Source: Acidobacteriota bacterium (GTDB taxonomy: Bacteria > Acidobacteriota > UBA4820 > DSQY01). From it: a stretch of 39,665 nt of DNA. The position numbers and the translations under genes were made by a program. Below the pieces are notes generated by a model that searched no databases, was not told where the DNA came from, and saw only the letters and a program-made list of their open reading frames with translations. The stretch is taken from positions 1-39,665 of the forward strand of contig JAKAKG010000010.1 in assembly GCA_021813555.1 (NCBI GenBank), read 5' to 3'. Below are positions 5,346 to 17,365 of the stretch, in pieces; position 1 is the first letter of the stretch, and every line of letters begins with the position of its first letter.

Positions 5346-6449
<1,104 letters not shown>

Positions 6450-6489
6450 CGGAGATCCTTGGCCAACAGCCAATAGCCGGAGGGTTACC

Positions 6490-6879
6490 ATGAATATCCC
6501 GAGCGACCTTAAGTACACCAAGAGCCACGAATGGATTCGAGTCGAAGGAAACGTAGGCACGGCGGGCATCACGGACTTCGCCCAGCAAGAATTGGGCGAC
6601 ATCGTCTTCGTGGAAGCTCCGGCGCAGGGCTCCGCCGTGGCGGCGGGCGCGCCCATGGGGAGCGTGGAAAGCGTCAAGGCGGTTTCCGAGATCAATGCCC
6701 CCGCGAGCGGTACGGTTTCCGCGGTGAACGCCGATCTGACCGACCATCCCGAGCTCCTGAACGCCGACCCCTACGGCAAGGGATGGATCCTCAAAATCAC
6801 CTTCGCCAACACCGGAGAGCTCTCGGGCCTCATGGACGCCGCGGCGTACGCGGCCTATGTGGCTGAATCGGCGCATTAA
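6490..6879 (+). CDS. gcvH: glycine cleavage H protein
   Basis: A 129-aa lipoyl carrier that shuttles the aminomethyl group between the P, T and L proteins. The lipoylated lysine is Lys63 in GSVESVKAVSEI. YTKSHEWI at the N-terminus and the NADPYGKGWILKI segment are typical. It starts 40 bp after gcvT; GGAGGG sits just upstream of the ATG. A 214-bp gap holding an inverted repeat separates it from gcvPA. No lipoate-protein ligase or dihydrolipoamide dehydrogenase (L protein) gene is present in the window. Confidence 0.96.
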   Translation: MNIPSDLKYTKSHEWIRVEGNVGTAGITDFAQQELGDIVFVEAPAQGSAVAAGAPMGSVESVKAVSEINAPASGTVSAVNADLTDHPELLNADPYGKGWILKITFANTGELSGLMDAAAYAAYVAESAH

Positions 6880-6920
6880 CTACTCTCACCTCGGAGCACG
6901 CGGTCGAAGGGGAAACCATC

Positions 6921-7028
6921 TCACCGCGAAGACGCAAAGAGCGCCAAGAAAGGAATGCGTTCGGATTGAACCGCCATGGGGGACCCTTGCTTACGGTTTT
7001 CTTTGTCCCCTTTGCGTCTTTGCGGTGA
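6921..7028. repeat. inverted repeat in gcvH-gcvPA gap
   Basis: The left arm near 6921-6952 begins TCACCGCGAAGACGCAAAG; the right arm near 6994-7028 ends TTTGCGTCTTTGCGGTGA. They are imperfect inverted repeats of about 33 bp separated by about 42 bp. Sequences of this TTTGCGTCTTTGCGGTGA type are a known dispersed intergenic repeat in many bacteria. It could fold into a long hairpin inside the gcv transcript. Confidence 0.75.
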
Positions 7029-7093
7029 ATTTGTTTCTTGACCTTCTGGATTTCTCCGCGGTCCGTGGTGAATAGTCTTTAGGGAGAACCCCC

Positions 7094-8437
7094 ATGCGAT
7101 ACCTTCCCGCGAGCGAGGAGGATATTCGGCAGATGCTGGGCGCCATCGGCGCGGAGCGCGTGTCGGACCTCTTCGCCTCCATCCCCGAGGATCTGCGCCT
7201 GAAAGGGCCGCTGGACCTGCCCGAAGCGGTGGCCGAGCCAGTCCTGCGCGAGCGCTTCGTGACGCGCTCCATCCGGAACAGCTCCCCCACCTGCCGGCCG
7301 TGCTTTTTGGGCGCGGGTGCCTATGACCACTACGCTCCCGCTCCCATCGACCAGCTCCTCATGCGGGCCGAGTTTTACACGGCCTACACGCCGTACCAGC
7401 CCGAAATGGCCCAGGGCACATTGCAGGCCATTTTCGAGTTTCAGACCATGATGGCGGACCTGACGGGGATGGACGTGTCCAACGCCTCCCTCTACGACGG
7501 CGCCTCCTCCGTGGCCGAGGCGGCCCTCATGGCCCACCGCATCCACAGGGGCAGCACGGTTCTGGTGGCTCGCTCCGTGCACCCGGCCTACCGGGAGGTC
7601 CTCCGCACCTACACCAAGCATCTCGGGTTCACCATCGCGGAGGTGCCTTACGGAGCCGACGGCCGCCTGGACTTGGCGGCCCTGAAGGGGGCCCTGAATC
7701 CCGACGTCTGCCTGGTCCTCGCGGGGCAGCCCAACTTCTTCGGCGTGGTGGAGGACCTCAAAGCCGTTGCGGGCGCGCTGGAGGGGGACAAGAAGCCCCT
7801 GCTCGGCGCCGTGGTAGCGGAGGCCCTCTCCCTGGCCCTCATCGAGCCCCCGGGCGCCTGCGGCGCCGACATGGTGTGCGGCGAGGCCCGGTCCTTCGGT
7901 TTGCCTCTGGGCTACGGCGGCCCCTACCTTGGATTCATCTCCACTCGGCAGGCCCACATGCGCCAGCTCCCCGGCCGTATCGTGGGCGAGACCGTGGACG
8001 CGGACAACCGGCGCGGCTTCGTGCTGACCCTCACCACCCGGGAGCAGCACATCCGGCGAGAGAAGGCCACCTCCAACATTTGCAGCAACGAAGGCCTCTG
8101 CATGCTCGCCGCCACCATCTACCTCGCCAGCATGGGCCGCAAGGGGCTCCGTGACCTGGCCCTCCAGAACCTGAGCAAGGCCGAATACCTGAAGGCGGCC
8201 CTTAGGGCCAAAGGGATTCAGCCCCTCTTCGGTGCCCCGACCTTCAACGAGTTCGCCGTCAGAGTGCCCTCGGCTGAGAAGGCCACGGACGCGGCCTACA
8301 AGGCGGACCTCCTGGGGGGCTACGACCTGGGCAGGGAGTATCCCGAGCTGGAGGGAGGCTATCTCCTGTGCGCCACGGAACGGGTTTCCAAGCTTGCCTG
8401 CGACCGCTTGGCGGCACTTTTGGGAGGACTCTCATGA
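7094..8437 (+). CDS. gcvPA: glycine dehydrogenase (decarboxylating) subunit 1
   Basis: A 447-aa N-terminal half of the P protein in its two-subunit form. Together with GcvPB it forms the PLP enzyme that decarboxylates glycine. It matches the family from RYLPASEEDIRQML onward: FLGAGAYDHYAPAPIDQLL, TAYTPYQPEMAQGTLQAIFEFQ, SLYDGASSVAEAALMA, and the late REQHIRREKATSNICSNE segment. This subunit lacks the PLP lysine, as expected. The start ATG at 7094 has a weak AGGGAG upstream. Its stop overlaps the gcvPB start (ATGA at 8434-8437), which implies translational coupling of the two subunits. Confidence 0.96.
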   Translation: MRYLPASEEDIRQMLGAIGAERVSDLFASIPEDLRLKGPLDLPEAVAEPVLRERFVTRSIRNSSPTCRPCFLGAGAYDHYAPAPIDQLLMRAEFYTAYTPYQPEMAQGTLQAIFEFQTMMADLTGMDVSNASLYDGASSVAEAALMAHRIHRGSTVLVARSVHPAYREVLRTYTKHLGFTIAEVPYGADGRLDLAALKGALNPDVCLVLAGQPNFFGVVEDLKAVAGALEGDKKPLLGAVVAEALSLALIEPPGACGADMVCGEARSFGLPLGYGGPYLGFISTRQAHMRQLPGRIVGETVDADNRRGFVLTLTTREQHIRREKATSNICSNEGLCMLAATIYLASMGRKGLRDLALQNLSKAEYLKAALRAKGIQPLFGAPTFNEFAVRVPSAEKATDAAYKADLLGGYDLGREYPELEGGYLLCATERVSKLACDRLAALLGGLS

Positions 8438-9888
8438 GCCGGCCCATCGAGGAAAAACTCCTGTTCGAGAAGGACCACCCGGGCCGCGTGGGAGCCTCCG
8501 TTCCACCCTCCGATGTGCCTGAGGTCGATCCCCGAACACTCTTCGGGGATATGGTCCGGGGGGCGGCTCCCGCCTTCCTGCCCGAGATGAGCGAGGTGGA
8601 TGTCGTGCGCCACTTCACCCGGCTGAGCACCTACAACTACGCGGTGGATTTCGGCCTTTACCCCCTCGGCTCCTGCACCATGAAGTACAACCCCAAGATC
8701 AACGAGGAGGTGGCGCGCCTGGAAGGCTTCGCCCGCCTCCATCCCCTCCAGCCCGAGTCCACCACCCAGGGGGCCCTGGAGCTCATGGCCACGCTCCAGA
8801 ACGCCCTGTGCGCCATCACCGGCATGGATGCCTGCACCCTCCAGCCCGCGGCGGGAGCCCACGGGGAGTTTACGGGAGTCCAGCTCATCCGCGCGTACCT
8901 GGAGAATCAGGGCGACGCCCGGAAGGTCATGCTCATCCCCGATTCGGCCCACGGCACGAACCCCGCCAGCGCTCACTTCTCGGGCTATGCCGTGGAGCAG
9001 ATCCAGAGCGGGCCCGACGGCTGCGTGGACCTGGAGGCCCTGAAAGCCCGCATGAAGCCCGACGTGGCGGCCATCATGCTCACGGTGCCCAACACCCTGG
9101 GCATTTTCGAGAAGAACATCGCGCAGATCTGCCGAATCCTTCACGCCAACGGCTCGCAAGTCTACGTGGACGGCGCCAACCTGAACGCCCTCATGGGCAT
9201 CACCCGGCCCGGGGATTGGGGCGCCGACGTGATGCACATCAACCTCCACAAGACCTTCAGCACGCCGCACGGCGGCGGAGGACCGGGGGCCGGCCCCGTG
9301 GCGTGCAAGGCCCACCTGGAGCCCTATCTTCCCCGCCCGGTCCTGGCCAAAAAGGAAGGCCGCTACCTCTGGGACCGAGACCGGCCCAAGAGCATCGGCA
9401 AGGTCCTCGGGTTTAACGGGAACTTCCTGGTTCTGGTGCGGGCCCTGTGCTACATCGAAACCATGGGCGCGGATGGGCTCAAGCGCGCCTCCGAGCTGGC
9501 CGTCCTGAACGCCAATTACATGCGGTCTAAGCTCAGGCCCCTTCTGGAGCTTGGCTTCGACGGGCCGACCCTTCACGAAGTCGTGTTCTGCGACAAGGGC
9601 CTGCCCGGCGGCGTCACCACGCTGGATCTGGCGAAGCGGCTCATCGACTACGGCTTCCACCCGCCCACCGTATATTTCCCCCTCATCGTCCACGGGGCCC
9701 TCATGATCGAGCCCACGGAGACGGAGCCCAGGGAAGAGATGGACCGGTTCGTGGAGGCGGTGGCGGCCATCGTGAAGGAGGCTGAGGAGAATCCCGCTTA
9801 CGTGAAGGCGGCTCCGCACAACGCCTACCGGCGGCGCCTCGACGAGGTGGCCGCTGCCCGAAACCCCAGGCTCACCTACAAGCCGTAA
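8434..9888 (+). CDS. gcvPB: glycine dehydrogenase (decarboxylating) subunit 2
   Basis: A 484-aa C-terminal half of the P protein carrying the catalytic site. The PLP-binding lysine is Lys273 in HINLHKTFSTPHGGGG. Other family segments are YPLGSCTMKYNPKINEE and PDSAHGTNPASAH. The start ATG at 8434 is preceded by GGGAGG and overlaps the gcvPA stop; an in-frame upstream ATG at 8368 would add 22 residues overlapping gcvPA and is rejected. It ends the operon at a clear intrinsic terminator (9918-9942). Confidence 0.96.
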   Translation: MSRPIEEKLLFEKDHPGRVGASVPPSDVPEVDPRTLFGDMVRGAAPAFLPEMSEVDVVRHFTRLSTYNYAVDFGLYPLGSCTMKYNPKINEEVARLEGFARLHPLQPESTTQGALELMATLQNALCAITGMDACTLQPAAGAHGEFTGVQLIRAYLENQGDARKVMLIPDSAHGTNPASAHFSGYAVEQIQSGPDGCVDLEALKARMKPDVAAIMLTVPNTLGIFEKNIAQICRILHANGSQVYVDGANLNALMGITRPGDWGADVMHINLHKTFSTPHGGGGPGAGPVACKAHLEPYLPRPVLAKKEGRYLWDRDRPKSIGKVLGFNGNFLVLVRALCYIETMGADGLKRASELAVLNANYMRSKLRPLLELGFDGPTLHEVVFCDKGLPGGVTTLDLAKRLIDYGFHPPTVYFPLIVHGALMIEPTETEPREEMDRFVEAVAAIVKEAEENPAYVKAAPHNAYRRRLDEVAAARNPRLTYKP

Positions 9889-10562: not shown

Positions 10563-12563
10563 ATGAACAACTCTGCATATCGGCTTTTCGTAGGCTTCGC
10601 CCTTGCTGGGCTTATCACCATGGGATCATCGGGTCCCGCGCGGGCGGCGGTTCCGGCGGCGCCCACGTCCGAAGACTGCCTCCAATGCCATGACGATCCC
10701 GGCATGGCCGCGACCAAGGCCGAGCGGCCAGGGGCGCTGGGCGCGACGGTGGTCGCCAAGGAGGGCCTCACCCTCCAAGTCACAAAGAGTGCGCTGAAGG
10801 GTTCGGTCCACGAGGGCCTCTCGTGCACGGATTGCCACACCGGCATTCAAGAACTGCCCCACGGGGACAAACTTCCTCCGCCCTCCTGTGACTGCCACTC
10901 GGATCTCCAGGCGGAGCTGAAGGAAGGCGTCCACGCCCCATCGGGGCCCGCCTCGGCCCTCGTGCCCCGCTGCGCCGATTGCCACGGCGCCCACCAGATC
11001 AGGGGTAAAAGCGATCCCGCGTCCTCCATCTATCCGGCGAACATTCCGTCCACATGCGGGGCCTGCCATGGCAACACGGAGGCCATGAAGGCCCTGGGCG
11101 TCCGGCAGAGCAATCCCCTGGAGAACTTCCTCAAGAGCGACCACTGGAAGTCCATCGAGGGAGGGGTGACACGCAAGGCGGCCACGTGCGCCGACTGCCA
11201 CGGCGCCCACAAGGTGCTCTCGGCGACCGATCCCAAATCTCCCGTGTACAAGACCAACGTTCCCGCGACCTGCGGAAAGTGCCACAGGGGAATCGAAGAA
11301 AAATACCTGGAGAGCATCCACGGCAGGGCCCTCGAGGAGGGCCACATGGAAGCCCCCTCGTGCACCGATTGCCACGGCGAGCACGACATCGAGAAAGCCA
11401 GCCGGTCCACGAGCCGGGTGAACGGAGCGAACCTGGCCACCGTGACCTGCGGAGAGTGCCATTCCTCCGTGCGCATGGCCAAGCGCTTCAGCCTGCCCCA
11501 GGGCATGGTCAAGTCCTACCAGGCGTCGTTCCACGGCCTCGCCACCAAGTACGGCGATACGGCGGTGGCCAACTGTGGAAGCTGCCACGGGGCCCACGAT
11601 ATCCTCCCCAGCAGCGACCCGAAGTCGAGCATCAATCCCAAAAACCTTCAGGCCACCTGCGGGAAGTGCCACCCCGGAGCGGGAGCGACCTTCGCGCAAA
11701 CGCCCATCCATCTGAAAGTGACGGCCTCCGACAGCCCCGTTCTTTACTGGCTGCAGCGCTTCTATATCATCCTCATCGTCCTCACGCTGGGCGGTATGGC
11801 GCTTCACAACTTGCTGGACTACATCCGCCACTACAAGGAAACCCTCAAGAAGCTTCGCCCCGTGGCGGTCTACCTGCGCATGACCAAGTCGGAGCGCATC
11901 CAGCACTTCTGCCTCCTTACGAGTTTCCTCACCCTCGTGGTGACGGGGTTCGCCCTCAAGTGGCCCGACTCCGTCTGGGCCGCGCCCTTCCAGGCCCTCC
12001 CGGGAGGGTTCGAAGCCCGCGGCCTGCTCCACCGGATCGCGGCCGTGGTCATGGTGGCGGACTCGTTGTACCACGTGGTCTATCTGCTGGCTACGAAGCG
12101 CGGGCGGCGGTTCATGAGGGACATGATCCCCACCCTGCAGGACGCGAAAGATCTCGTCATCCAGATCGGCTTCTACCTCGGGTACCGCGACCGCGGAGCC
12201 CGGTTCCCGCGCTTCAGCTACGCCGAGAAGGCCGAATACCTGGCCCTGGTGTGGGGCACCGCCGTCATGGTGGCGACGGGCTTCGTGCTGTGGTTCAAAA
12301 CCTTCTTTGTCCGCTTCCTGCCCGACTGGGGCTACTCGGCCTCGGAGATGGTCCATTTCTACGAGGCCGGACTCGCCTTCGGCGCCATCGTCATCTGGCA
12401 TTTTTATGCCGTGTTCAGCCACACGGAGAAGGCGCCCTACAACCCCACCTGGATCACCGGCCAGCTCACGCGGCACGAGATGGAGCGGTACCACCCCCGT
12501 GAGCTCGAGGAACTGCAGGCGCGGGAGCGCGAGGCGGCCAAGACGCCAGAGAAGAAGCCATGA
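10563..12563 (+). CDS. multihaem cytochrome c / cytochrome b fusion (CbcL-like)
   Basis: A 666-aa membrane electron-transfer protein. After a signal peptide (residues 1-29, PARA-AV), residues 38-385 hold ten CXXCH haem sites plus one CXCH (Cys109-Asp-Cys111-His112). A transmembrane anchor at about 393-418 follows, then a four-helix b-type module with His448, His490, His504 and His613 as likely ligands of two b haems. The layout matches inner-membrane quinol:cytochrome c oxidoreductases such as Geobacter CbcL, with the c domain in the periplasm and the b domain exchanging electrons with quinol. The c part plus first helix resembles the product of 13279-14382, and the b part resembles that of 14379-15332. 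First gene of a five-gene operon behind a sigma54-type promoter; its TGA overlaps the next ATG. Substrate and partner are inferred. Confidence 0.85.
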   Translation: MNNSAYRLFVGFALAGLITMGSSGPARAAVPAAPTSEDCLQCHDDPGMAATKAERPGALGATVVAKEGLTLQVTKSALKGSVHEGLSCTDCHTGIQELPHGDKLPPPSCDCHSDLQAELKEGVHAPSGPASALVPRCADCHGAHQIRGKSDPASSIYPANIPSTCGACHGNTEAMKALGVRQSNPLENFLKSDHWKSIEGGVTRKAATCADCHGAHKVLSATDPKSPVYKTNVPATCGKCHRGIEEKYLESIHGRALEEGHMEAPSCTDCHGEHDIEKASRSTSRVNGANLATVTCGECHSSVRMAKRFSLPQGMVKSYQASFHGLATKYGDTAVANCGSCHGAHDILPSSDPKSSINPKNLQATCGKCHPGAGATFAQTPIHLKVTASDSPVLYWLQRFYIILIVLTLGGMALHNLLDYIRHYKETLKKLRPVAVYLRMTKSERIQHFCLLTSFLTLVVTGFALKWPDSVWAAPFQALPGGFEARGLLHRIAAVVMVADSLYHVVYLLATKRGRRFMRDMIPTLQDAKDLVIQIGFYLGYRDRGARFPRFSYAEKAEYLALVWGTAVMVATGFVLWFKTFFVRFLPDWGYSASEMVHFYEAGLAFGAIVIWHFYAVFSHTEKAPYNPTWITGQLTRHEMERYHPRELEELQAREREAAKTPEKKP

Positions 12564-13282
12564 GCCAGTCACAACAGAAGGAGCGGGGCATGACGAAGCA
12601 GCGGCCGGTGCCCATGGTGGAGCGGATGTCCCTGTGGCAAAGGGTGGTGCACGGGATCCTCATTCTGGCCATCCTCATGCTGGTCGTTTCGGGCCTGGCT
12701 TTGGTTTACCACCAGCACGGCTGGGCCCAGGCCCTCATCGCCGCCATGGGCGGTCTCGGCGGCCGCGCCGCGGTCCACAAGGCGGGGGCGGTCCTCCTGG
12801 TCCTGGTGGGCCTCTCCCATCTCCTCAGCCTCATGGTCTCGCCCCGCTACCGGCGCGACATGCGTGAATCGGTACCGCGCCTGTCGGACCTGCGGCAGGG
12901 CTGGTCCGGGGTCCTCTGGCGCACGACGGGCAAGGGCCAGCCCCCGCGGTACGGCCGGTTTACGCCCATGCAGAAATTCCAGTACTGGGGCCTCCTCGCG
13001 TGCTGCCTCGTGATGGGCGCCTCGGGCGCGGTTCTCTGGTCGCCCCAGGCCTCCGTCGGCCTCTTCTCCAAGAGATTCGTGGATCTCATGCTCGTGGTCC
13101 ACTCCAGCCAAGCCCAGGTCATCTTTATCCTTTTTATCCTGTGGCACCTGTACGACATCCATCTGGCCGGGGGGAACTTCCCCATGAACCCCGCCTGGCT
13201 CACGGGCAAGATGCGCGAGGATCTCTTCAAGGCCCAACACGGCGCCGAATGGGATGCCATGCAGAAGGGGACCAAGGAATGA
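12560..13282 (+). CDS. di-haem cytochrome b subunit (FdnI/HydC-like)
   Basis: A 240-aa integral membrane protein with four hydrophobic segments. His31, His73, His87 and His196 sit at the positions used for two b haems in formate dehydrogenase gamma / Ni-Fe hydrogenase cytochrome b subunits. It shares the RYGRFTPMQKFQYW and LWHLYDIH landmarks with the b module of the first gene and the b protein of the fourth gene, so it is a third paralogue. The ATG at 12560 forms an ATGA overlap with the gene before. An ATG at 12590 has a better ribosome site (AGGAG 6 bp upstream) and may be the real start, removing ten hydrophilic residues. Likely the quinol-side partner of one of the multihaem proteins. 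Confidence 0.85.
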   Translation: MSQSQQKERGMTKQRPVPMVERMSLWQRVVHGILILAILMLVVSGLALVYHQHGWAQALIAAMGGLGGRAAVHKAGAVLLVLVGLSHLLSLMVSPRYRRDMRESVPRLSDLRQGWSGVLWRTTGKGQPPRYGRFTPMQKFQYWGLLACCLVMGASGAVLWSPQASVGLFSKRFVDLMLVVHSSQAQVIFILFILWHLYDIHLAGGNFPMNPAWLTGKMREDLFKAQHGAEWDAMQKGTKE

Positions 13283-14382
13283 CGGGCACCTCCATGCTTC
13301 GCCTGCGCCGGATCCTCTGGGCGGGCCTGGTGGCGGCCGCGTTCGCCACGGCAGCCTACGCCCAGGAAGACGTGCGCTGCCTGAGCTGCCACGGCAAGCC
13401 CGGCTTCCGAAAGACCCTGCCCTCGGGCCAGGTCCTCGAGCTCTTCGTGGACCCCAACCTCCTTCGGCTGTCGGTGCACAAGGACAAGCACTGCGTGGAC
13501 TGCCACGCGGACGTGAGCGAGGTCCCCCATCCCACCACGCCCCAACCGGTCAACTGCCGCCGCTGCCACTACAACGGCAACACGTCGGGGGCTCCACAGC
13601 TCGCCAAATACCTTGAATTCGAACGCAGCGTTCACGGGAAGGCGCTGGCGGCGGGAAACCCCAAGGCGCCCACGTGCCAGGACTGCCACGGCGGCCACTT
13701 CATTCTGCCCGGGTCTGATCTGCGCTCCCGGGTCTTTCGCACCAACATCCCCCAGGTGTGCGGTACGTGCCACCTGAAAATCTTCGCCGAGTACGAGGCG
13801 TCCATCCACGGAAAAGCCCTTGCCAAGGGAAATCCTGACGCCCCCGTGTGCACGAGCTGCCACGGCGAGCACAACATCGAGAAGCCCGAGGAAAAAACCT
13901 CCACGGTGAACCCCGGGCACGTGGCCAACACCTGCGCCAAGTGCCACGACAAGGTGGTCATCATGGAGAAATACGGCGTGAATGCCGAGCAGGTGGCCAC
14001 CTACGAGGAATCCTTCCATGGCATCGCCAACGAGTTCGGCGTGCTCAAGGCGGCCAATTGCGCGAGCTGCCACACGGCCCACGACATCCTGCCCCCCAGC
14101 GATCCTCTCTCCAGCGTGAATCCAGCCAACATCCCCAAGACGTGCGGCAAGTGCCACCCAGGGGCCAACGCCAATTTCGCCAACGGCCGGATCCACATCG
14201 ACGCCAAGGACAAATCGGCGGGCATCGTCTACTGGGTGGCCCTGGGGTTCAAGATCCTCACCCTGTCCACCCTGGCGGGCCTGTTCATCCACATCGGCCT
14301 GGACCTCTACCGCAAGATCCGCAACCACCAGAAGGCCGGCGGGGCAAAGCCCGGGGCCCCCTCCTCGGAGATTCAGCCATGA
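13279..14382 (+). CDS. nine-haem membrane-anchored cytochrome c
   Basis: A 367-aa protein. Signal peptide 1-28 (AYA-QE), nine CXXCH motifs between residues 34 and 293, and one C-terminal transmembrane helix (about 315-343) with a short basic tail. It aligns by eye with the c domain of the first gene: CTSCHGEHNIEK, an NCxSCHxAHDILPxSDPxSS block and xTCGKCHPGA occur in the same order, and both enter a helix beginning (V/L)YW. Where the first gene has a CXCH, this one has a normal CRRCH (residues 93-97). Its start overlaps the preceding stop and its stop overlaps the next start. With the next gene it appears to be the two-gene version of the fused first gene. Confidence 0.85.
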   Translation: MTGTSMLRLRRILWAGLVAAAFATAAYAQEDVRCLSCHGKPGFRKTLPSGQVLELFVDPNLLRLSVHKDKHCVDCHADVSEVPHPTTPQPVNCRRCHYNGNTSGAPQLAKYLEFERSVHGKALAAGNPKAPTCQDCHGGHFILPGSDLRSRVFRTNIPQVCGTCHLKIFAEYEASIHGKALAKGNPDAPVCTSCHGEHNIEKPEEKTSTVNPGHVANTCAKCHDKVVIMEKYGVNAEQVATYEESFHGIANEFGVLKAANCASCHTAHDILPPSDPLSSVNPANIPKTCGKCHPGANANFANGRIHIDAKDKSAGIVYWVALGFKILTLSTLAGLFIHIGLDLYRKIRNHQKAGGAKPGAPSSEIQP

Positions 14383-15332
14383 GCGAGGCTGTCAAGAAGG
14401 CGTGGAGCGACCAGGATACGCGCGCCGTGTCGGAAATCGTACAACAGGCGGCATCCTCGGCCCTTCAGGGAGAGATCCCTCCCGCCGTGACGGAGGATCA
14501 GGCCAAGCGCCTGCGCGAGACCCTCGCCTCCGCGCTCGCGACGGAGGTGGCCCTCGACGTCCGGCGCGCGGCCCACGCCTTCTTCGAGGAGGAGCGGAGG
14601 CGGGAGAAGGACGCCGCCAAGGAACGCGCCAAGGCGGGGAAAGACGCGGACATGGTGGAGCGCCTCAGCCTCCACGTCCGCCTTCAGCACATGGTCCTGT
14701 TTTCGTCCTGCATCCTCCTCATCCTCACGGGGCTGCCCATCAAGTTCCACGAGGCCGCCGTGTCGGTCTTCCTCATCGACATCATGGGGGGGCCCGACGT
14801 GACGAGGGTCCTGCACCGAATCGGGGCCGTAGCCCTCACGTTCATCGGCCTCTACCACCTGTTCTACTGCCTGGCCTTCGAGGAGGGGCGCAAGACCTTC
14901 GGCCAGCTCATCCCCAAGCCTCAGGACGCCAAGGATGCCCTCCATCAAATCCTTTACTTCCTCGGGATCAAGAAGGACCGACCCCTCTTCGGGAGGTTCT
15001 CCTACGTGGAGAAGTTCGACTACTGGGCCGTGTACTGGGGCATGGTGGTCATGATCACCTCCGGGTACATCCTCTGGTTCAAGGACGTGACCATCAACCA
15101 GTTCGGCAAGTTCGTCTTCGACATCGGCCGCGAAGCCCACTCGGACGAAGCCCTCCTGGCCACCCTGGCGATTGTGATCTGGCACTTCTACAACGTCCAC
15201 TTCAACCCTCACAAATTTCCCGGAAGCCTCACGTGGCTCAACGGAAAAATCACCCTGCGCGAGTTCAAGGAGGAGCACCCCCTGGAGTATGAGGAGTGGA
15301 AGGCCTCCCACGACAAGGGGAGCACGCCATGA
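14379..15332 (+). CDS. cytochrome b subunit with cytoplasmic helical extension
   Basis: A 317-aa protein. Residues 1-95 are hydrophilic, helical and charge-rich with no haem motif, probably cytoplasmic. Residues 100-275 form the four-helix b module with His104, His146, His160 and His269 as likely ligands for two haems. Landmarks shared with the first gene are VLHRIGAVAL, IPKPQDAKDAL, FGRFSYVEKFDYW, ILWFKD and IVIWHFYNV. The ATG at 14379 is set by the ATGA overlap; a longer upstream reading in this frame lies within the previous gene. It probably pairs with the nine-haem protein encoded just upstream to give a split counterpart of the fusion protein. The N-terminal extension is not present in the fused form. 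Confidence 0.83.
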   Translation: MSEAVKKAWSDQDTRAVSEIVQQAASSALQGEIPPAVTEDQAKRLRETLASALATEVALDVRRAAHAFFEEERRREKDAAKERAKAGKDADMVERLSLHVRLQHMVLFSSCILLILTGLPIKFHEAAVSVFLIDIMGGPDVTRVLHRIGAVALTFIGLYHLFYCLAFEEGRKTFGQLIPKPQDAKDALHQILYFLGIKKDRPLFGRFSYVEKFDYWAVYWGMVVMITSGYILWFKDVTINQFGKFVFDIGREAHSDEALLATLAIVIWHFYNVHFNPHKFPGSLTWLNGKITLREFKEEHPLEYEEWKASHDKGSTP

Positions 15333-17365
15333 GCCCTCGCACCCAAAAAATCATCTGGGGCGTGGCTGCGGCCGTGGTGGTTCTGTTCGCGGCGGGCTGG
15401 GCCTTCGTGGACGTCACCGCGCGGCGCGCCGCCTTCTGCCCCAAATGCCATTACATGCAGCCGTACGTTGACCAGTGGAAGGCCTCCAAACACAGCGGCG
15501 TGGAATGCGTGAAATGCCACCCCAGCGAGCGCCGCGCCATGTTCGGCCAGTTCGTCAAGTACGTCACCGGCACTTACAACCCCAAACCCCGGGCCTTCGT
15601 GCCCGACTCGGCGTGCCTGGCCAGCGGCTGCCACGCGGGCATGCAAGCCAACAAGGGCGTCAAGTTCCTCACGGTCACGTTCCCTCACCAGCCCCACCTC
15701 GTCAAGGACCGGCGCGGCATCGCCCTCCACTGCGCCTCGTGCCACGGCTCCTCCCAGGAGGCGGGCCACGTGAGCGTGGACCCCAAGGTGTGCTTCCTCT
15801 GCCACTTCAAGGGCCAGCCGCCGGGCGGCACCGTGGCCGGATGCGGGGCGTGCCACGGGGCGCCTGAAGGTATCTCCAAGCATGGAGGGTTCAGCTTCGA
15901 CATGAAGGCCTACGTGGACTCGGGCGTGGCGTGCAGCCGCTGCCACTTGTCGGTCCACGAGGGCGACGGCAGGGTCTCCAAGGACAAGTGCTACTCGTGC
16001 CACGTCTCCCGCCTTGAGAAGATCGGCCAGCCCGTCATGCTCCACGACGTGCACGTGGGCCGGAAGGAGATCCGGTGCCTGGAATGCCATGAGCCCATCC
16101 GCCACGGCAACATCAAGCTCATCTCCGTCATGGACGTCTCCTGCGAGTCCTGCCATCCCAACCTCCACGGCGGGCCAAAGGAGATGTATCTCGGCGTGGG
16201 AGGCAAGGGCGCCGCCTCCACTCCCAGCCGCATGTTCGCCGCCCAAATCAACTGCACCGGATGCCACACCCAAGTCACGACCCAGGGGAGCATGTCCTTT
16301 CTGGGCCAGGGCACGGCCAAGGCCGACCCCAAGGCCTGCGCCGCCTGCCACGACTCGCGCTACGTCCCCATGGTGGACCGCTGGAAATCGCAGGGGAAAC
16401 TCCTCGCCGCCGAGGCCCGCCGCATGGCTTCGGAGGGCTCGCGTTTGGCGGGCCGAGCACCCGCCGGATCGGAAGCCGCCAAGGCGGCGGCGGACCTGGA
16501 CTTCAACGCCCGGTTTCTCGAGACGGGCGAGCCCGTGCACAACATTGAATACGCCATCCGGGTCCTTCAGGGCAGCTCAGCCATTCTGAAAAAGCTGGGC
16601 GAGGCCCGAGGCGACAAGGAGGCGGGCGAGATCCGGGCCCCCTTCGCCAAGGGGCCCTTCACCTACTGCGCCGACACCTGCCACACGTTCATTCCCCGGC
16701 CCGAACCCTACGAATGGAAGGGCGTGGATTTCCCTCACACCTACCACGTTCAGAAAGCCGGCCTGAGCTGCGACACCTGTCACGCTGACACGCGCCACAC
16801 GGCCATGAATCTGGCCTCGCCCGCGGACTGTGCGGGATGCCATCACGACGATGCCAAGGCGGACTGCGCCCGGTGCCACGTGCGGCAGGCCGCACTCTTC
16901 AAGGGCACCGTTCCCGCGGCGCTCGGCCTCCACGCGCGGCCCGACGTCATGGCCGAGGCGGTGGGATGCGCGGACTGCCACGATCCCGCCAAGGCCGATG
17001 CGCTCAAGACCGTGGGGAAGGCCTGTGCCACATGCCACGACGCCAAGTACGAGGCGACCCTCCAGGACTGGAAGACCAAGCTCAAGGAGGGCCGGGATGC
17101 CGTGAACATTCTCACCGTGGAAGCCAGCCTCGCCGTGGCCAACCTCAAGCGGCAAGGCGCCGATGCCGGCTCCCTGGAGTCGAGGCTCGGGGCCGTCGAG
17201 GCGCGCATGGACTATTTGGACCGAGCTCGCGGCGTTCACAACATGACCGCCGCCCTCGCCGCCATGGACCAGGCGAAGAGGGATCTCCACGCCATCGAGG
17301 ACGCCGCCTCCAAGGGCGTGCTCTCGGCACCAGGATCTGCGGCCAAGCGGCCATCGGCGAAGTAA
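15329..17365 (+). CDS. 18-site multihaem cytochrome c with NapC-like N-terminus
   Basis: A 678-aa protein anchored by an N-terminal helix (residues 8-28), so it faces the periplasm from the inner membrane. It has 16 CXXCH motifs plus CX4CH (Cys96/Cys101-His102) and CX3CH (Cys447/Cys451-His452), 18 potential haem sites. The first pair, FCPKCHYMQPYVDQW then VECVKCH, resembles NapC/NirT quinol dehydrogenases. Two segments, 337-421 and 566-650, look like internal copies: each starts CHD-(S/A)-(R/K)-Y, contains a Trp and ends in a VHN-containing helical stretch. It ends the operon, with a terminator 26 bp downstream. Likely role: collects electrons from the b/c complexes and passes them outward. 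The terminal acceptor cannot be deduced. Confidence 0.83.
   Translation: MSPRTQKIIWGVAAAVVVLFAAGWAFVDVTARRAAFCPKCHYMQPYVDQWKASKHSGVECVKCHPSERRAMFGQFVKYVTGTYNPKPRAFVPDSACLASGCHAGMQANKGVKFLTVTFPHQPHLVKDRRGIALHCASCHGSSQEAGHVSVDPKVCFLCHFKGQPPGGTVAGCGACHGAPEGISKHGGFSFDMKAYVDSGVACSRCHLSVHEGDGRVSKDKCYSCHVSRLEKIGQPVMLHDVHVGRKEIRCLECHEPIRHGNIKLISVMDVSCESCHPNLHGGPKEMYLGVGGKGAASTPSRMFAAQINCTGCHTQVTTQGSMSFLGQGTAKADPKACAACHDSRYVPMVDRWKSQGKLLAAEARRMASEGSRLAGRAPAGSEAAKAAADLDFNARFLETGEPVHNIEYAIRVLQGSSAILKKLGEARGDKEAGEIRAPFAKGPFTYCADTCHTFIPRPEPYEWKGVDFPHTYHVQKAGLSCDTCHADTRHTAMNLASPADCAGCHHDDAKADCARCHVRQAALFKGTVPAALGLHARPDVMAEAVGCADCHDPAKADALKTVGKACATCHDAKYEATLQDWKTKLKEGRDAVNILTVEASLAVANLKRQGADAGSLESRLGAVEARMDYLDRARGVHNMTAALAAMDQAKRDLHAIEDAASKGVLSAPGSAAKRPSAK

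Follow-up and report, generated by a model that had tools for sequence, protein, structure and literature searches.

A conserved operon of fused and split cytochrome modules

Contig JAKAKG010000010.1 of the Acidobacteriota bacterium assembly GCA_021813555.1 carries, within the stretch of 39,665 nucleotides analyzed here (the window), a five-gene cytochrome operon that probably encodes an inner-membrane, multi-module quinol:cytochrome c oxidoreductase, which resembles CbcL and CbcBA in its architecture and would feed periplasmic and outer-membrane cytochromes. As far as we searched, the operon is real, well conserved, unnamed in the literature and assembled from known parts. Its 5 open reading frames (ORFs) span positions 10563–17365 on the plus strand, and the ORF coordinates confirm both the gene order as first described and the 4 junctions, each of which is a 4-bp ATGA overlap. 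Gene 1 (10563..12563; 666 aa) encodes a c-b fusion, consisting of a signal peptide, a c domain with 11 sites, a transmembrane (TM) helix termed TM0 (residues 392–427), and a di-haem b domain with 4 TM helices (residues 432–664). Gene 2 (12560..13282; 240 aa) encodes a di-haem cytochrome b belonging to module 2. Module 3 comprises gene 3 (13279..14382; 367 aa), a 9-haem c subunit with a C-terminal TM helix, and gene 4 (14379..15332; 317 aa), a di-haem cytochrome b with an N-terminal extension of about 90 residues. Finally, gene 5 (15329..17365; 678 aa) encodes an 18-site c cytochrome with an NrfH-like membrane-anchored N-terminus and a helical C-terminal part similar to NrfA, MccA, and OcwA. 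The CXXCH counts for genes 1 to 5 are 10, 0, 9, 0, and 16, and these 35 motifs, together with a CDCH site in gene 1 as well as a CX4CH and a CX3CH site in gene 5, make up the 38 potential c-haem sites that the original prediction had counted. Pfam places the b domains of genes 1, 2, and 4 in PF01292 and the c regions in Cytochrome_C7/c3 families.

Fused and split modules are homologous

For comparisons across genomes, the fused c-b gene was designated F (with domains cF and bF), while the subunits of modules 2 and 3 were designated cM2/bM2 and cM3/bM3, respectively. Gene 1 is homologous from end to end to genes 3 and 4, the c part including the first helix corresponding to gene 3 and the b part to gene 4, as originally proposed. 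Alignment of the family profiles, the check suggested for this proposal, yielded E-values of 5e-112 for cF-cM3 and 3e-81 for bF-bM3. Since CXXCH motifs partly inflate the scores of multihaem profiles (cF against the gene 5 family already reaches 3e-17), direct landmarks count in the comparison of the c domains. The haem spacings at the end of the c domain are 28, 30, 29, 42, and 28 in gene 1 and 28, 30, 28, 42, and 28 in gene 3, in each case followed by a single TM helix. Judging from these spacings, the 11 sites of gene 1 would represent the 9 of gene 3 plus one extra pair. Furthermore, the c domains contain as many conserved His residues outside the motifs as haem sites (11 for 11 in gene 1 and 9 for 9 in gene 3), which fits the expectation for bis-His haems. 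One additional conserved His of gene 1 lies in TM0 (window 11736–11843) and has a counterpart in residue 338 of gene 3. With a conservation of 0.89 in F and 0.80 in cM3, this TM-helix His possibly serves a further haem or belongs to a quinone site.

The CDCH site of gene 1 (10887..10898, plus strand; residues 109–112) is a CX1CH variant of a position that reads CXXCH in 93 of 102 aligned gene-1-type rows. CX1CH occurs in the rows of 4 genomes of the window's family, in the versions CDCH, CRCH, and CTCH (window and loci L040, L043, and L048). All 3 motif residues (Cys, Cys, and His) are conserved without exception in a 32-row alignment, and the window protein keeps all 11 conserved non-motif His. 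This putative haem site looks retained rather than lost. A limited literature search, which does not prove absence, returned no mention of a natural CXCH haem site. In 2 Zixibacteria (L087 and L092), the equivalent gene 1 site reads CX3CH.

Each of genes 1, 2, and 4 encodes a di-haem, FdnI/PF01292-type b domain that retains the 4 His ligands of the haems, and the prediction of 3 di-haem b modules, with gene 2 as third b paralogue, was confirmed (bF-bM2, E = 2e-75). The 4 His align to H18, H57, H155, and H169 of FdnI, which are the haem ligands of that protein, and are invariant within each of the 3 b groups, including the orphan gene 2. The AlphaFold model of gene 1 (predicted local distance difference test, pLDDT, 79.5) shows one helix after the c domain and then a four-helix b bundle, which superposes on FdnI with Z 17.2 and 3.0 Å over 209 residues. 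In total, 5 membrane helices are modeled, from 392–427 to 588–618, in addition to a signal-peptide helix at residues 4–20. The loop between TM0 and the b bundle is rich in basic residues and, therefore, probably cytoplasmic. Genes 3 and 4 are split at the corresponding point, i.e., between the TM0-equivalent helix and the b domain, and since this split falls within a probably cytoplasmic loop, the two forms, fused and split, are expected to be equivalent.

The operon is a shortened form of a widespread six-gene operon

A scan with gene 4 of 84,980 species genomes yielded 80 loci, with record titles naming many phyla. Loci were labeled using our own gene calls (from a home-made caller) together with phmmer and hidden Markov model searches, and contigs that end early are included in the counts. 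The commonest full form consists of 6 genes in the order fused c11-b, c11, b, c9, b, and c16, i.e., 3 c-b modules and a large NrfH-headed cytochrome. F, module 3, and the big cytochrome are found together in 30 loci, 19 of which also contain bM2, and 14 of these additionally cM2. The window operon represents 5 of the 6 genes and is missing cM2. A search for its five-gene order, as had been recommended, showed that it is not unique, since 5 loci share it (the window, L043, L044, L096, and L100). We therefore rejected the operon as a stand-alone novelty, given these 5 loci and the 14 loci with all 3 modules and the big cytochrome. In the Bacteroidetes five-gene form (L096 and L100), the fused first gene contains 18 CXXCH motifs. 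In 2 acidobacterial operons, the gene directly behind the fused one encodes, judging from its sequence, a sensor histidine kinase whose sensor part contains a single CXXCH (L046:4401-6158 and L047:3275-5035).

For both domain types, trees were computed as quick builds with support values solely from the Shimodaira-Hasegawa-like approximate likelihood ratio test, slot labels being derived from gene neighborhood and haem counts; rows misplaced in the trees were removed before the later family profiles were built. In the b tree (166 domains), fused b domains mostly form one group (39 of its 42 rows; support 85), most of the module-3 b domains gather in a group of 75 rows (starred), and those of module 2 lie for the most part outside both, the deepest forks being weak. 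The c7+b pairs of Clostridia/Bacillota fall beside the gene 4 clade. In the c tree, F (36 of 38 rows; 95, starred), cM2 (31 rows; 97, starred), and cM3 (56 rows; 94) are separate. Since both trees split mostly by operon slot, the modules would have diverged before the operon spread among phyla. The trees thus support modules that are older than this spread, and provide no rooted order of events.

A cM2 query from a genome of the same family (G001) retrieved no cM2 in the window genome, only genes 1 and 3 at lower identity, so that gene 2 lacks a c partner in this genome. The assembly is 98.6% complete in 235 contigs and carries the operon intact on one of them; therefore, cM2 is absent from its slot. 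By comparison, cM2 is kept in G001 and in a genome of the same genus (G006; beside the fused gene at a contig end). Probably, all 3 modules were complete in the ancestral operon, and the lineage of the window then lost the c subunit of module 2 while keeping its b subunit.

The distribution of the modules also bears on whether they act together. It is conceivable, if clearly less probable than a joint oxidoreductase, that the operon co-transcribes 3 separate quinol dehydrogenases for different potentials, which form no single complex and share gene 5 as their acceptor. This would agree with the occurrence of modules apart from each other, with the varying order and strand of F among loci, and with Geobacter, in which ImcH, CbcL, and CbcBA are separate quinol oxidases for different potentials (PMC9129911). 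Moreover, of the 396 genomes sampled from the phylum, 183 contain gene 1 homologues (E <= 1e-40), in many cases without the rest of the operon, and in the 20 Acidobacteriota loci inspected they stand mostly alone or with other cytochromes. However, the genes in the window are tightly coupled in translation, and the modules repeatedly co-occur with the big cytochrome. Beside the gene 1 homologue, other Acidobacteriota (L160, L167-L169, L173, L175, and L176) encode c19-c21 or c11 proteins that are fused to, or followed by, a b domain, and module fusion seems to be frequent.

Gene 5 combines an NrfH-like head with a large multihaem region

Gene 5 had been described as a large multihaem protein with a NapC-like start, which agrees with its 18 sites and with the match of its first 66 residues to NrfH (NCBIfam, E = 2.3e-11; PDB, E = 2.3e-4). 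Like the NrfH/NapC quinol dehydrogenases, it begins with one TM anchor helix, a CXXCHxM motif, and a second CXXCH; a few relatives show CHYE instead of CHYM, CHIM, or CHEM. It differs from them in continuing with 16 more haem sites and 2 helical modules. The CX4CH site (15614..15634, plus strand; residue 96) and the CX3CH site (16667..16684, plus strand; residue 447) align to positions with CXXCH in 25 and 14 of 55 family members, respectively, and are, therefore, good candidates for haem sites.

Beyond the N-terminus, the structural model is less certain (pLDDT 76; predicted template modeling score 0.46). Residues 512–664 resemble MccA, OcwA, and octahaem nitrite reductases in VIA-align (Z of about 10–11 over about 140 residues), although mostly helical models can reach such values through a common arrangement and this model is of middling quality. 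Foldseek returned no match for the model at E <= 0.001. The claim that the operon contains no other enzyme subunit needs some caution, since the C-terminal region resembles the helical half of NrfA/MccA/OcwA, although a motif search detected neither CXXCK nor a CX10-20CH catalytic-type site.

The same features speak to a reading of gene 5 as a reductase that acts on a soluble substrate in the periplasm, in which case the operon would be a quinol-dependent, NrfHA-type reductase with additional b modules. We consider this quite unlikely. The NrfH-like N-terminus and the NrfA/MccA/OcwA-like C-terminal part (Z of about 11 over about 139 residues) are in its favor, but the catalytic-type sites are missing, and MccA ties with OcwA, which shares this fold and is known to act as a terminal metal-reducing cytochrome on the cell surface, so that the fold gives no preference to nitrite or sulfite.

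Proposed function

We infer from these features, and by analogy with characterized proteins, that the products form one quinol-oxidizing complex. In each c-b unit, the four-helix b subunit with its 2 stacked b haems would take electrons from quinol and pass them across the membrane to the multihaem c domain, which a single helix would anchor in the periplasm. The c-b units probably deliver these electrons to gene 5, whose NrfH-like N-terminus may also contact the quinol pool from the periplasmic side, and from there electrons could proceed to periplasmic carriers and to the decahaem/porin pairs of the genome. By analogy with FdnI, the quinone site would be located near the cytoplasmic side, and electron flow out to the periplasm would then cost membrane potential in the quinol-oxidizing direction.

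Two decahaem genes of the DmsE/MtrA family in the window genome (contigs C116 and C95) adjoin proteins of approximately 650 residues with porin-like ends. Because each of them neighbors a possible porin, extracellular or metal electron transfer, as suggested originally, is a plausible function, and it is at this strength that we retain the proposal. Decahaem DmsE/MtrA-family genes beside porin-like proteins were located at L123:4907-9597 and L125:6901-12482, the latter being followed by a molybdopterin oxidoreductase. The genome also contains further multihaem/NrfD and cytochrome b clusters (G000:C133, L124; C44, L126; C187, L127), including one NrfH-headed 12-haem protein with NrfD. The genes upstream of the operon, at a distance of 674 bp, look like those of a glycine cleavage operon (gcvT, gcvH, and both gcvP halves; window 5346–9888). 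Scans around the cytochrome operon for sigma-70 promoters and intrinsic terminators found none, which is weakly informative in a GC-rich acidobacterium.

Several points weigh against a quinol:cytochrome c oxidoreductase that feeds outer-membrane cytochromes. The porin candidates have no Pfam family, and one has only a sub-cutoff NCBIfam hit. All six-gene loci with known record titles come from uncultured genomes, and the likeness to CbcL, CbcA, and CbcB of Geobacter was judged from architecture. A single complex of all modules is not a necessity either, as other Acidobacteriota often carry the gene 1 homologue but not modules 2 and 3. Furthermore, the window genome encodes a haem-copper oxidase, so that other electron sinks exist.

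The direction of electron flow deserves separate consideration, since the closest solved b subunit, FdnI, works in the quinone-reducing direction. The same machinery might run in reverse and use periplasmic or extracellular electrons to reduce quinone via the c-b modules. Such a direction has been proposed for MtoC in Fe(II) oxidizers and for CbcBA in syntrophic sulfate reducers (PMC10553843), and a study of the CbcL/MtoC/MtrH family found no feature that tells its quinol-oxidizing from its quinone-reducing members (PMC6295460). Nevertheless, nothing within the window points to an inorganic donor, and we regard this direction as unlikely. A more speculative reading, to which we give little credence, has the products form a single membrane complex. 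FdnI-type b modules, with their quinone site on the cytoplasm side, and an NrfH-type head, with its quinol site on the periplasm side, would then belong to a common haem network. Within such a machine, quinol oxidation could be linked to the membrane potential in opposite directions, as a loop or bifurcation, with the fused and split copies as non-equivalent arms.

If quinol oxidation is indeed the function, the operon touches on a step, the exit of electrons from the quinone pool to extracellular respiration, that is known in few model bacteria. It points to an ancient variant of the CbcL/CbcBA design, with 3 modules, that is widespread among many uncultured phyla but experimentally unstudied, and the presence of a nearby lineage without one part makes the independence or interlocking of the modules testable. 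Moreover, the operon offers a tangible marker by which quinol:cytochrome c oxidoreductases may be recognized in sediment genomes, where the genes taken singly hit no more than general families (e.g., cytochrome b561 and cytochrome c7).

Comparison with known systems

The predicted partial likeness to the Cbc quinol oxidoreductases of Geobacter was borne out at the level of architecture, with CbcL as the fused and CbcBA as the split counterpart. Like the CbcL/MtoC/MtrH proteins, gene 1 encodes a single polypeptide with a periplasmic multihaem c domain followed by a membrane di-haem b domain with conserved b-ligand His. CbcL comprises a six-helix di-haem b domain and 9 c haems. Geobacter requires both CbcL and CbcBA for extracellular acceptors of low potential, CbcL for instance with electrodes at -100 mV and CbcBA during the final phase of Fe(III) reduction (PMC9129911). 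Within the CbcL/MtoC/MtrH family, identities range from 28.6% to 100%, and most members have 6 TM helices, a few 4 or 5 (PMC6295460). Gene 1, however, has 11 sites instead of 9 haems and 5 modeled membrane helices instead of 6 predicted ones, and it shares its operon with 2 more b subunits. A predictor would also count the signal-peptide helix, giving a total of 6, and we therefore call gene 1 CbcL-like rather than CbcL.

Genes 3 and 4 combine a multihaem c subunit carrying a membrane helix with a separate di-haem b subunit, as do CbcBA and the CFE_2192-2193 pairs of Carboxydocella, split c+b pairs that have been read as CbcL homologues (PMC6085454). They differ from CbcBA in the 9 haems of gene 3 compared to 7 in CbcA and in the N-terminal extension of gene 4, and we found no description of an NrfH-headed partner for CbcBA in the literature. 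Cbc5 and Cbc6 of Geobacter, too, are membrane-bound quinol:cytochrome c systems composed of multiple subunits, several of which are multihaem cytochromes c. Cbc5 (CbcEDCBA) has one cytochrome b and c subunits with 7, 11-12, and 1 haems, and the c subunits of Cbc6 (CbcMNOPQR) have 12, 10, and 4-5 (PMC10989804, PMC9961858). However, the published subunit lists contain neither a fused c-b subunit nor 3 b paralogues, and both complexes were rejected as identities for the operon because haem counts and the number of b subunits differ.

In the literature searched, no named complex had the gene order of the window, and to this extent the description of a new gene set stands. It needs to be qualified, since the set is a shortened version of a six-gene operon of many phyla, the composition of which has been reported, unnamed, in MBNT15 bacterium SHF-111 (PMC9386147). 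According to the iron-reduction section of that paper, cluster 1 of SHF-111 consists of 4 multihaem c genes (9-16 sites) and 2 cytochrome b genes and is proposed to oxidize quinol for Fe(III) reduction. By description, this matches the composition of the six-gene form, whereas that section mentions no c-b fusion, and the window operon is one c gene short.

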